From Schlesneria sp. (GTDB lineage Bacteria; Planctomycetota; Planctomycetia; Planctomycetales; Planctomycetaceae): a DNA stretch of 64,000 bases. Positions 3,783 through 50,994 of this stretch are shown piece after piece; the stretch's first letter is position 1, and every line of letters begins with the position of its first letter. Made by a program: the position numbers and the translations under genes. The notes below the pieces were generated by a model that had not been told where the DNA came from, did no database searches, and worked only from the letters and a program-made list of their open reading frames with translations. The stretch is taken from assembly GCA_028291515.1 (NCBI GenBank), contig JAQGHU010000074.1, forward strand, positions 124,001 to 188,000, read 5' to 3'.

Positions 3783-3868
3783 GCGTCAGCCAAATCAGCT
3801 TGGCTGACGCCCGAAAAGGCCAGAGGCCTGACGCAGCCCGCATCAGGCGAGACTGCGATGCGGCCTCT
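3783..3868. repeat. Cluster of palindromes (REP-like)
   Basis: An 11-bp perfect inverted repeat (GCGTCAGCCAA 3783-3793 with TTGGCTGACGC 3800-3810, 6-nt loop) is followed by a second foldable segment. There AGAGGCC 3822-3828 can pair with GGCCTCT 3862-3868, and CCGCATC 3838-3844 with GATGCGG 3857-3863. It lies in a gene-free stretch. It is not followed by a T-run, so it resembles an interspersed palindromic unit more than a terminator. Confidence 0.6.
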
Positions 3869-3901
3869 TTTCAGCCCGTTGTATTATCACAACCAACAAA
3901 C

Positions 3902-4012
3902 TCACTTGCTGTTTTTCTTGTCAGCCTTTGCCTTGCGCTTCTCTTTCAGACTCAGCACGGCCTTCTTCTGAGGTTCCTTCTTGCCTTTATCGCCTTTTCC
4001 TTTTTCCGCCAT
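3902..4012 (-). CDS. Very small Lys-rich protein
   Basis: An ATG at 4010-4012 opens a 36-codon frame on the minus strand, beginning MAEKGKGDKGKKEPQKKA and ending with KADKKNSK. About 15 of 36 residues are lysine and there are no aromatic residues. A good ribosome site (AAAGGA) sits about 10 nt upstream of the ATG. Small, strongly basic proteins of this kind are common in planctomycete genomes; nucleic-acid or ribosome binding is a guess from charge alone. It is too short for ordinary gene finders. Confidence 0.6.
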   Translation of the reverse strand: MAEKGKGDKGKKEPQKKAVLSLKEKRKAKADKKNSK

Positions 4013-47287: not shown

Positions 47288-48043
47288 CTACTTCTTCCCG
47301 GAAAAAATGACGACCGGGAACGCGAAGCCGAGACCATTGTCGCGATTGGCATCGATGCCGACGCGGTTGACTCCGATGTCGCTTTCGACCGTCTCTCGGA
47401 AAGCATCGGCTCCGCCGGGTTCGGGGAATGAGCGGGACAACAGTACGTCAACATTGACGGGATACTTGTAGAACTCGCGGCGAATATCGGAGAGTCCGCT
47501 GAAGAGATCTTCGAACTCAGTCAGTTGCAGGGCATGGGTATGCGATGGATCTCGGTGCTTCTCCATCCGATCGTAAAGGTCCGCCTGTTCCGCTGTGGTC
47601 ATGAAGACATCGCAGACAGTGACGCTACCTCCAGGCCGGCAGACGCGAACCATTTCGGCAAACGCGAGTTCCGGATTCGTGAAGTGATGAAATGAGTATC
47701 GCGTGACGACGCGACTGAACTCGCCATCGGCAAACGGCAGCGGATGAGCGTCTCCCACGACAAAGTCGAGGTTCGTCAGCGCGAGTGATTGTTGATGCTT
47801 GCGAGCTTGCTCGATCATGGCGGGAGTGAGGTCAACTCCGGTGACATGTCTGGCAACCTTGGCGACCTCGCACGCCACCAATCCCGGTCCGCAGGCGACA
47901 TCGAGCACGTTATCGTTGGCTTCAATGCCGGCTGTTGTGATCAAAAGCTGATGGATCTGGGCATCATCCCGCGCGTGCAGTTGCGAGAAGGGAATTGCCT
48001 GTCGGGTAAACTGATCCAGAATCAATTCGCGCTGTTCGTCCAT
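47288..48043 (-). CDS. Class I SAM-dependent methyltransferase
   Basis: A 251-residue methyltransferase of the UbiE/type-11 kind: motif I NVLDVACGPGLVACEVAK, acidic VTGVDLTPAMIEQAR, then VGDAHPLPFADGEFSRVVTRYSFHHFTNP and a C-terminal VRVCRPGGSVTVCDVF. Substrate unknown. ATG 48043 is followed by the expected N-terminal helices. It is divergent from the GH43-like gene, with 188 bp between the starts. Confidence 0.88.
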   Translation of the reverse strand: MDEQRELILDQFTRQAIPFSQLHARDDAQIHQLLITTAGIEANDNVLDVACGPGLVACEVAKVARHVTGVDLTPAMIEQARKHQQSLALTNLDFVVGDAHPLPFADGEFSRVVTRYSFHHFTNPELAFAEMVRVCRPGGSVTVCDVFMTTAEQADLYDRMEKHRDPSHTHALQLTEFEDLFSGLSDIRREFYKYPVNVDVLLSRSFPEPGGADAFRETVESDIGVNRVGIDANRDNGLGFAFPVVIFSGKK

Positions 48044-48231
48044 AGTTCCTCCAAAAAAGAATACCGGTTAGATACAAATACCGGAAACTGGTTCGCGAGA
48101 TTCGAAGCTCAACTTTCGAGAATGAGCCGCAAAACAATATGCAGTGACTCGAACCAGCCATTTTTGCTTCAGCGATCGCAACAGTGCATCATTCATGGAA
48201 CCACAACGTGAAGAAAACAAAGGCGCTGGCC

Positions 48232-49215
48232 ATGAATCTCAGGATGACAAGCAGGCCAATGATGCTCCACGCCGCTCTCATACTGTCGATGCTGACAGTT
48301 GCGAGCCAATCCGCGTTTGCCGATCCGGAACCTGAACAGGGTTGCTACCTGTTCAGTTATTTCAGAAACAACGGCGAAGACGGATTGCACTTCGCCAGCA
48401 GTTCTGATGGGTTGAAGTGGGAATCACTCAACGACGACAAGTCGTTTACGTCACCGACAGTCGGCGGGAAGTTAATGAGTGATCCTTCGATCGTGCAAGG
48501 CCCCGATGGCGTCTTTCACATGGTCTGGTCGAGCGGTTGGTGGGATCTGGGATTTGGCTACGCCTCATCGCGAGATCTCATTCACTGGAGTGAGCATCGC
48601 CTGATCCCCGTGAACCAGGATGTGGCAGGAGCCAAGAACACGTGGGCTCCCGACCTGTTTTTTGATCAGGTCAATGAACAGTTCGTGATCCTGTTCGCGA
48701 CGACCATCCCAGGCCGCTTTCCCGAGACAGATAACGGAGGCGATCACAACCATCGGATGTACTGGGTGAAGACGAAAGACTTCGTTACCTTCTCCAAGCC
48801 CGAACTGGCGTTTGATCCCGGTTACAACTGCATCGATGCCACGCTGGTAAAGATGAACGACGGCATCACCATGATCTTCAAAGATGAGCGCCCAGGTCAT
48901 AAGCGACTGCACGTCACAACGGCCGCAGGGATCGGCAAGCCCTGGTCCGCTCCAGGAGAACCCATTCTGAAACGAGACTGGGTCGAAGGTCCCACCGCGC
49001 TCAAGGTCGGCCCCGTCTGGCGCCTCTACTTCGACTGCTACAAGGACGGCCACTACGGCGCCGCCGAAAGCCGCGACGGCAAGTCCTGGACTGACATTAC
49101 CGACAAACTGCAGATGCCCAAAGGAATGAGACACGGCACGGCATTCAGCGTGTCACCAGAGATTTACGCGCCCCTGTTGAAGTACAAAACCACAGCGACA
49201 AACCTAAAAAACTGA
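48232..49215 (+). CDS. Exported GH43-like five-bladed beta-propeller protein
   Basis: A 327-residue secreted protein with a signal peptide (LHAALILSMLTVASQSAFA). The propeller resembles glycoside hydrolase family 43: LMSDPSIVQGPDGVFHMVWSS, NTWAPDLFFDQVNEQFVILFAT, EGPTALKVGPVWRLYFDC. Candidate carboxylates occupy the usual blade positions (Asp in SDPSI, Asp in the CIDATL region, Glu in EGPTA), as for the three acids of GH43. Target is probably an arabinan, xylan or related polysaccharide. ATG 48232 has AAAGG 8 nt upstream; a GTG at 48184 would add 16 residues before the signal. Confidence 0.8.
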   Translation: MNLRMTSRPMMLHAALILSMLTVASQSAFADPEPEQGCYLFSYFRNNGEDGLHFASSSDGLKWESLNDDKSFTSPTVGGKLMSDPSIVQGPDGVFHMVWSSGWWDLGFGYASSRDLIHWSEHRLIPVNQDVAGAKNTWAPDLFFDQVNEQFVILFATTIPGRFPETDNGGDHNHRMYWVKTKDFVTFSKPELAFDPGYNCIDATLVKMNDGITMIFKDERPGHKRLHVTTAAGIGKPWSAPGEPILKRDWVEGPTALKVGPVWRLYFDCYKDGHYGAAESRDGKSWTDITDKLQMPKGMRHGTAFSVSPEIYAPLLKYKTTATNLKN

Positions 49216-49234
49216 TTGGCTCCTCGGAGCCGAT
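49215..49234 (-). terminator. Terminator-like hairpin after GH43-like gene
   Basis: ATTGGCTCC and GGAGCCGAT (49215-49234) pair with a G-T wobble. On the minus strand it is followed by CAGTTTTTT, so it could stop minus-strand transcripts coming from the HEPN element, as well as serve the plus-strand gene. Confidence 0.5.
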
Positions 49235-49304
49235 TCTGCGGACGATAGCGTCGATTATTCTGGCACGACCAGAATTACAGAAACCCGTGAAAAGAGAGGT
49301 CCTG

Positions 49305-49356
49305 CTGAGTGGGACTGCAGGAACTCGAACCCTGAACCAAAGGATTATGAGTCCTC
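49305..49356. repeat. Partial tRNA copy: distal attachment site
   Basis: 52 bp matching 50916-50967 at 51 of 52 positions (A at 49322 instead of G). The match begins 5 nt outside the 3' end of the tRNA gene and covers its 3' part through the anticodon loop, then diverges. This is the expected leftover of site-specific integration into a tRNA 3' end. Confidence 0.85.
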
Positions 49357-49423
49357 ATGAAGTAATGACTTGCGACCTCATCTTTAGCATTCCTTAGCGC
49401 TTAGCGGACGTCAAAGAATGGCT

Positions 49424-49449
49424 GAAGCCGCCCATTGCTCGGCGGCTTC
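49424..49449 (-). terminator. Hairpin downstream of HEPN-like gene
   Basis: GAAGCCGCC (49424-49432) and GGCGGCTTC (49441-49449) form a 9-bp stem with an 8-nt loop, 109 bp after the HEPN-like stop in its direction. The following minus-strand sequence is AGCCATTCTTTG, only mildly T-rich. Confidence 0.45.
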
Positions 49450-49557
49450 CTTACTTTGAGCGATAGGTCCGCATCCGTTCATCTGTGAACGGAAACATCA
49501 GAATGTGGACCGCTTCAGCGATCGGGGTACATGAGATGGAAACGGACAAGATGGCGA

Positions 49558-50664
49558 CTACTGTGGATTCGCCATAAGCCATCCGTTCACGAAATCGATC
49601 AATAGGCCGCCCTGCTCGTCGGCGATATTTATCATTTTGGCAACTCTATCGCCCGTCAGCGGCACGGCCTCCCCAAGCTTTAGATTTCCCAACAACGTAT
49701 GGTTCTTTGCAAGTGTTTCGAATTCCTTGTCCACTACTCCAGCATTGTGAATGAGGTTGTTGCGAACTGCAGCCAGCAACCGGAGTTCATTGTCTTCAAA
49801 GATCGACACAAGTCTTGGCTTGTCATCCTTGAAGATTTTGTAATAAGCATCTGCGGCTTTGTCTCGCCGGTCAAAGCTCCATTTCTTTTGCTCTCGGCAG
49901 AGAATCCCCATGCCCTTGGAAAAATCGAATACTGGGTCACGAAGCATCCAGTGGGGAATTGGAATCTTGGCATTGCGCTTAGACTTGGTCTCTGGTTCTG
50001 TGTCGTCCGCTGACGGCTCAACATCCAGAGCGATGAACCCAAGCCTTGGCCTGGCATTGAGGCACTGAACCCATAAATCCTCTGTTAGGGCCTCAAACGC
50101 GGTCCATGCTCCAATTATCTGAGACGCCAGAATCGCGTTGATTGCTTCGTCGGGGCCGCCATTTTCATCGGAAATGATCGTGTCAATTGATGTTTTGCCG
50201 AGGTGAACAAGCTTTGTCGGCACATGATATGTTGTTTCGATCCCGTCTCTGACGGCGTCTTCCGAATGACCCGTATGACGGCTTTCGTTGACAACCCAAT
50301 TCTCAAGCATTCCTCTCCCGACAAGATAAGACAGCAAAACCATAACATCTGTCGTGCGGTTCATGTTTCGCTGGAACGATCGCACCGCCGTGCGTATGGC
50401 GGTCTGGATATCTTCCGGGTACCGATTTGTATATGCATAGGCAACGTCCATCGCTTTTGTGAAGTGGAACTTTTCATCATGACAGTCAAGTGAGACCTGC
50501 TCCTTCACGTCATTAACTTCCGCGGCAAGGTCGTGTGCCAATATCAGCCCGCAGCGCGGGCAAGGCGAGCAATAGTACATCTCGGGAGACTCGCCTCCTC
50601 TTGGAGGAAACAGCCATTTGCATTCTATACATGCGATTAGAAGACCGCGCACTGGATCTGTCAT
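49558..50664 (-). CDS. Zinc-ribbon plus HEPN-like protein, cargo of the tRNA element
   Basis: A 368-residue protein. Residues 12-38 hold a zinc ribbon (CIEC, then CSPCPRC: C12, C15, C32, C35, C38). The middle is helical and unrecognised. The C-terminal part has a helix IIGAWTAFEALTEDLW (about 184-198) and ELRLLAAVRNNLIHN (R301, N302, H306), an RNxxxH motif as in HEPN RNases of toxin and antiviral systems. HEPN proteins usually cleave RNA when activated; that this one does is inference. ATG 50664 is chosen for GAAGGG just upstream; a frame to 50868 also exists but has no ribosome site. It is the only gene in the element, with no obvious antitoxin. Confidence 0.7.
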   Translation of the reverse strand: MTDPVRGLLIACIECKWLFPPRGGESPEMYYCSPCPRCGLILAHDLAAEVNDVKEQVSLDCHDEKFHFTKAMDVAYAYTNRYPEDIQTAIRTAVRSFQRNMNRTTDVMVLLSYLVGRGMLENWVVNESRHTGHSEDAVRDGIETTYHVPTKLVHLGKTSIDTIISDENGGPDEAINAILASQIIGAWTAFEALTEDLWVQCLNARPRLGFIALDVEPSADDTEPETKSKRNAKIPIPHWMLRDPVFDFSKGMGILCREQKKWSFDRRDKAADAYYKIFKDDKPRLVSIFEDNELRLLAAVRNNLIHNAGVVDKEFETLAKNHTLLGNLKLGEAVPLTGDRVAKMINIADEQGGLLIDFVNGWLMANPQ

Positions 50665-50920
50665 TACATTCCCTTCGCGGTGTTGTGCGCGAGCTCCTGT
50701 GGAACTCGTCATGGTCTGGGAGGAGCAATCAGCAACGCCACGCCCCGTACTTCGCTCGAGTTGCAGCATCTGAGCCGCTTGGGGCACCGTATAGCCCAGC
50801 CGTTCCATCATTCCTACCAACGCTCTGCCCGTCGGAGGCAACGTACGATACGAGTCGACTGGCTCCATTGAAGCGGAGACTCATCGGCTTAAGCTCCTAT
50901 CCATCTTTCAACATTCTGAG

Positions 50921-50994
50921 TGGGACTGCAGGGACTCGAACCCTGAACCAAAGGATTATGAGTCCTCTGCTCTAACCGATTGAGCTACAGTCCC
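50921..50994 (-). tRNA. tRNA with CAU anticodon (elongator Met, or Ile2)
   Basis: Folds as a normal 74-nt tRNA on the minus strand: acceptor GGGACTG pairs CAGTCCC (50988-50994 with 50922-50928), the D-arm is TAGCTCAATCGGTTAGAGCA, the anticodon loop is CTCATAA and the T-arm has GGTTCGAGTCC. Discriminator A is at 50921 and CCA is not encoded. CAU in a non-initiator body means elongator Met or, if modified by TilS, Ile(AUA). It is the integration site of the 1.6-kb element. Confidence 0.92.

Follow-up and report, generated by a model that had tools for sequence, protein, structure and literature searches.

We propose that a 1.6-kb segment beside a tRNA gene of Schlesneria sp. is a decayed integrative element, probably a CIME-like deletion remnant that most likely descends from a prophage or phage-like island. 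The segment lies within a 64,000-nucleotide stretch of one contig, hereafter the window, and is bounded by two copies of a 52-nt repeat that reaches from the anticodon stem of the tRNA to four bases beyond its 3′ end (Table 1). The copies agree at 51 of 52 positions and their starts are 1611 bp apart; the best other place for the 52-mer in the window scores 27/52, and 50 mononucleotide-shuffled windows reach only 31/52, so the duplication of the tRNA 3′ part from which the earlier note on this DNA set out is real. One copy is part of a complete tRNA gene that ARAGORN assigns to Met(cat) and that scores 75.7 bits with the Rfam tRNA model RF00005, Ile2 being a possible alternative identity for this CAT tRNA. 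The gene has a single full-length match in its own genome (8.59 Mb in 119 contigs); apart from the displaced fragment, two partial matches of 80-83% are found there, which are presumably other tRNAs. The restored tRNA gene and the displaced fragment share one orientation, as in a tRNA-integrated island, and a single substantial gene, the 368-aa cargo gene, stands between the two copies, in agreement with the first description. A T-arm-like 16-mer at window positions 48140-48155, upstream of the GH43-like gene, matches the tRNA at 15/16 positions; it was considered as an older scar and discarded, since a similar sequence at the same place in the relative G142 marks it as inherited.

Table 1. 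Features of the integrase-less element and its flank (window coordinates).
Feature	Position	Strand	Basis
Flanking chromosomal GH43-like gene, kept in G142 beside an intact tRNA	48184..49215	+	Pfam PF04616; 86% DNA identity
Displaced chromosomal tRNA 3′ half, distal attachment scar, one T-stem mutation	49305..49356	-	Repeat match; outer flank colinear with G142
GC-rich hairpin (9 bp) after the cargo stop, before the distal repeat	49424..49449		Terminator-like on + strand only
Cargo gene, 368 aa, N-terminal CxxC pairs, C-terminal RX4H domain	49558..50664	-	Translation; C-terminal relatives in G005 and G059
Truncated helix-turn-helix-type gene (stub), about 50 codons	50731..50886	-	Related to G139 prophage-region gene
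tRNA-side repeat copy: element-borne tRNA 3′ half plus 4 bases	50916..50967	-	51/52 to other copy
tRNA gene, anticodon CAT, reconstituted target gene	50920..50994	-	ARAGORN; Rfam RF00005

The comparison with G142, a genome of the same genus, indicates the origin of each repeat copy. Window positions 47288-49356 align with G142 at 86% identity over 2072 bp, a stretch that takes in the GH43-like gene, a methyltransferase gene and the complete 52-bp fragment, and in G142 this colinear flank runs directly into an intact tRNA without the cargo. The fragment is therefore the original chromosomal 3′ half, and the complete tRNA gene of the window would owe its 3′ half to the incoming element. The single mismatch between the copies falls in the T-stem and is assigned to the displaced copy, because the tRNA copy agrees there with the intact tRNA of G142. 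The earlier note had reasoned that a tRNA fragment at this place in relatives lacking the cargo would speak for a simple duplication unrelated to integration; the arrangement found in G142 supports integration instead. G142 represents a site without insert for the 3′ side only. The window's other flank lies there on a second contig, joined to the 5′ 40 bases of the tRNA, and on the 5′ side there is a different element, whose integrase piece is 40% identical to the integrase of G143 and is cut off by the contig end; Pfam gives no match for this piece of 207 aa. The two G142 contigs at the split tRNA both end in one integrase stretch (L061:10465-10602 and L060:10640-10777, 46 aa identical), which suggests an integrase piece at both ends of that element or a collapsed repeat. 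It is conceivable that G142 lost the cargo by exact excision, and the polarity of the event is thus not proved.

The tRNA site is an integration hotspot into which elements insert from both sides. The comparison covered 20 loci from 19 genomes, 13 of the same genus (including the genome of the window) and six others; G140 and G136 were left out of the 15 same-genus genomes, as the best matches in these two seemed to be other tRNAs. Clear displaced tRNA halves (E below 1e-7) were found in 8/19 genomes, 5′ halves in G142, G143, G145, G146, G139 and G051, and 3′ halves in the window's own genome, G146, G141 and G139. Because 40 shuffled halves run against each of the 20 loci gave 11 matches at E up to 0.01 vs 16 for the real halves, six weak or explained matches were dropped (one each in G144 and G090, the latter being tRNA-Arg, a second one in G051, a 5′ half in G141, a 14-mer in G139 and the 16-mer mentioned above) and 10 of the 16 were counted. 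The clear halves break around the anticodon loop, and from these break points the crossover of the window element may be placed there as well.

On the 5′ side, G143 carries a 6.4-kb element (L063:4137-10593) that restores the tRNA 5′ half and encodes an integrase barely recognised by PF00589 (24 bits, below the cut-off) and better by a PHROG integrase profile (E 2e-19). Integrase remnants lie beside the tRNA on the same side in G135 and G144; in the former (L070:9552-9908), residues 2-83 adjoin residues 381-414, as if the middle of an integrase gene at the hotspot had been deleted. On the 3′ side, a tyrosine integrase (PF00589, E 5e-12) is encoded 80 bp from the tRNA on a MAG contig (L119), and relatives of it are found within 100 bp of the CAT tRNA in G172, about 1.6 kb from the corresponding CAT tRNA in G090 and, as a partial copy (residues 209-395), about 115 bp from the tRNA in G138 of the same genus. 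In IMG/VR, the 44.7-kb viral contig 3300032241_003019 (L110, L116) contains two copies of a tRNA 3′ half of this kind, which seem to be its termini, and one of them adjoins a PF00589 integrase gene; the contig resembles a complete provirus that uses a site of the same type. In G146, displaced halves occur on both sides of the tRNA. Its 3′-side occupant encodes HTH_3, Gp49-like and DUF6932 proteins and that of G141 encodes TIR, DUF4238 and RCC1 proteins, and among the part of their ORFs that was scanned neither interval gave a PF00589 match. A further contig, titled Kuenenia (L125), has a 3′ half at 594-637 (93%, 44 bp) 3.2 kb upstream of a full tRNA at 3847-3920, which is overlapped by a PF00589 integrase ORF; its order is opposite to that of the window. 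Taken together, the colinear flank in G142, the tyrosine integrases at the same tRNA and the displaced halves in relatives support the integration at a tRNA 3′ end that had been deduced from the repeat. Insertion on either side of a tRNA is already known, since in the Islander work a 5′ fragment is recorded for 159 of 3919 islands (PMC4383910).

PF00589 has no match in the neighbourhood of the element; the family matches 22 places in the genome at E ≤ 0.001, and those on the element's contig are more than 130 kb away. Because PF00589 scores one integrase type of the hotspot below its cut-off, direct searches of the element matter too. With 191 ORFs from the integrase loci as queries, the search for an integrase remnant gave a best tblastn E of 0.009, which is at noise level; the integrase-region ORF of L119 found no match in the element, and those of L125 and L128 matched nothing but the two repeat copies derived from the tRNA, with one of these alignments extending 20 bp inside the element. 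The absence of an integrase asserted in the earlier note thus holds, with no PF00589 match nearby and no remnant detectable by direct search. Since an integrase gene is missing from the element, we class it as a remnant or CIME-like rather than as an autonomous island. Nor is a helper integrase of the G143 or L119 type evident from the sequence of the same genome, which contains no relative of the former at 1e-20 and, as best relative of the latter, a partial match of 27%.

The stub at the tRNA-proximal end, 30 to 185 bp from the tRNA-side repeat copy, points to the kind of parent. It contains one stop and is 38% identical (E 2e-7) to a G139 gene of 135 aa whose contig carries terminase, portal and capsid genes (PHROGs). 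It also matches a gene on another contig of its own genome, C88 (E 0.002), and the C88 gene and the stub are the only two relatives of the G139 gene in the 15 same-genus genomes at E ≤ 1e-4; a pattern-based scan of IMG/VR found none. The helix-turn-helix label comes from weak PHROG sigma-factor matches (E 0.002-0.003) and a reading of the sequence. The 368-aa cargo frame continues into this truncated upstream gene, and the mechanical ORF therefore measures 436 aa. The C88 relative is full-length (L080:12556-12954) and appears on reading to consist of two similar helix-turn-helix-like halves; a tyrosine recombinase match is present on the same contig at 6055-6558.

The gene order is comparable as well. 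In one direction, G139 has the helix-turn-helix gene, a DNA methyltransferase gene and the tRNA 3′ half, and the window has, in the same orientation, the stub, the cargo and the tRNA 3′ half; in L119 and G172, an integrase gene occupies about the stub's present place beside the tRNA. In G139, the tRNA 5′ and 3′ halves point in opposite directions beside prophage genes, with 2 kb between them (L072:13358-15395), possibly through an inversion between attachment sites or an assembly fault. Since these halves are opposed, the contig starts within phage genes and no PF00589 match is found on it, G139 is a parallel and not a clean parent. Its lack of an intact tRNA seemed odd at first, but a second contig breaks off within the tRNA's first 22 bases, and an assembly break may explain the gap. 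A conserved leader between helix-turn-helix gene and cargo, shared by G139 and the window, was also rejected, the DNA alignment being below the best shuffles and tblastx giving a weak 37-aa match (30%).

The cargo gene is far longer than expected by chance: when the element was shuffled 200 times, no ORF exceeded 192 codons. The G+C content of the element is 0.516 vs 0.556 for the window, and third-position G+C of the cargo is 0.556 vs 0.69 and 0.73 in two host genes. Its N-terminal CxxC pairs read as zinc-ribbon-like. The motif RX4-6H is the hallmark of HEPN ribonucleases. An R-X4-H motif of this kind (R-N-N-L-I-H) is present in the C-terminal 200 residues of the cargo, with the same spacing in the relatives from G005 and G059, and as a lead only we regard the C-terminal domain as HEPN-like; the superfamily is treated elsewhere (PMC3710099). 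Similarity to the G005 relative amounts to 30% over 199 aa (E 2e-16) and is confined to the C-terminal part. Among 170 family genomes, the 436-aa query found matches in four, namely its own, G139 (stub only), and G005 and G059 (C-terminal part only), and the cargo part matched 2 of 392 sampled phylum genomes, its own and G005. No full-length relative outside its own genome was found in the 170 family genomes, the 392 sampled phylum genomes, plasmids or phages, and pattern-based scans of genome_contigs and IMG/VR gave no close relatives. Searches of Pfam, PHROGs, PADLOC and PDB sequences returned no match for the cargo, and its AlphaFold models (mean pLDDT 34.7 and 36.2) were unusable. The hairpin behind the cargo is one of three such sites in the region vs 1.5 expected, which is not significant.

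We propose the following sequence of events. A tyrosine integrase would have inserted the parent element into the CAT tRNA gene, of which the target is the only complete copy found, with the crossover lying around the anticodon loop. The element's own tRNA 3′ half would have restored the gene, and the chromosomal 3′ half would have been displaced to the distal end. A later deletion would then have removed almost the entire element, integrase included, so that 1.6 kb remained with both scars, the stub and a single cargo gene, which, to judge from its motif, may encode a defence ribonuclease of HEPN type. The deletion is suggested by the missing integrase together with the stub, not by a direct trace. 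Such an element should be immobile alone and, in principle, recombinable by an integrase of matching specificity.

The earlier note had left open whether the segment is a deletion remnant or a passive passenger. We favour the remnant, because the truncated tRNA-proximal gene is related to a prophage-region gene of G139 and because in other genomes the corresponding tRNA has integrase genes close to its 3′ end; the passenger is the weaker reading. Several points tell against the remnant: the stub starts near the tRNA and keeps the 5′ part of its gene, and could be the true end of the element; the occupants in G146 and G141 are also without integrase, which is unexpected of independent deletions; and the stub's relative on C88 may not be phage-borne. 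An intact passive element, with one gene between two attachment sites and moved in trans by the integrases of others, would naturally have no integrase, and it could draw on the integrases that exist beside this tRNA in the genus and in other genomes; the toxin-antitoxin-like and TIR-type cargo of G146 and G141, in intervals without a PF00589 match, would be its counterparts. We nevertheless consider it unlikely, as its tRNA-proximal gene is truncated, the genome contains nothing closely related to the hotspot integrases of G143 and L119, and the unit was found only once: the earlier note had advised looking for the repeat with its cargo elsewhere, and neither searches for the cargo in the family, the phylum sample, plasmids and phages nor pattern-based scans of genome_contigs and IMG/VR for close relatives gave a second full-length copy.

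A broader form of this idea, to which we give decidedly little credit, is that the tRNA is a dock for tiny integrase-less cassettes, mostly for defence (HEPN-like here, TIR in G141, toxin-antitoxin-like in G146), that enter on either side and are served by the integrases of unrelated elements. If small units do move in trans, tRNA sites would be cassette docks for defence genes. It is very unlikely that the segment is an accreted tandem member, the leftover of a larger array whose other members are gone; the displaced halves on both sides of the tRNA in G146 show that several elements can share the site, but only one displaced half was found in the genome of the window. Duplication of the tRNA 3′ part alone, the cargo having arrived separately and without site-specific recombination, would presumably look the same if only the 52-bp repeat were considered, but it is largely refuted by G142, where the outer flank of the fragment is joined to the intact tRNA itself, and the halves break around the anticodon loop in relatives too; we therefore regard it as extremely improbable.

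As a deletion remnant, the segment shows how little of a tRNA-integrated element can remain, its scars and one gene persisting, and it draws attention to a tRNA of Schlesneria-like planctomycetes that is a hotspot for integration on both sides. Titles and the openings of abstracts revealed no published work on tRNA islands at this planctomycete site. The elements in G143, G139 and the IMG/VR contig break, like that of the window, around the anticodon loop of the CAT tRNA, but are several times larger than its 1.6 kb; those of G143 and the IMG/VR contig carry an integrase, unlike the window element, and the G143 element restores the 5′ half of the tRNA whereas the window element restores the 3′ half. 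In the Islander collection, 3760 of 3919 islands have a 3′ fragment, and anticodon-centred sites form one of two classes (PMC4383910). A restored tRNA and a displaced fragment mark the ends of these islands as they do in the window, but the candidates are tested for an integrase gene, which the window element lacks; a finder with this demand would miss it. Integrase-less remnants are already known as a kind. Among the Dehalococcoides ssrA islands, 15 without an integration module are described beside 16 modules (PMC3146451); like the window element they are bounded by an RNA gene and its repeats, but they differ in the serine recombinase, the tmRNA gene and the multiple tandem islands. CIMEs have lost their integration and transfer genes and kept attL and attR (PMC5704250). 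The window element likewise has putative attachment sites at both ends, which could in principle serve as CIME sites, and it lacks genes for integration or transfer. The published description treats CIMEs as decayed forms of ICEs or IMEs, whereas the only trace of ancestry observed in the window, the stub related to the G139 prophage-region gene, points to a phage-like parent.
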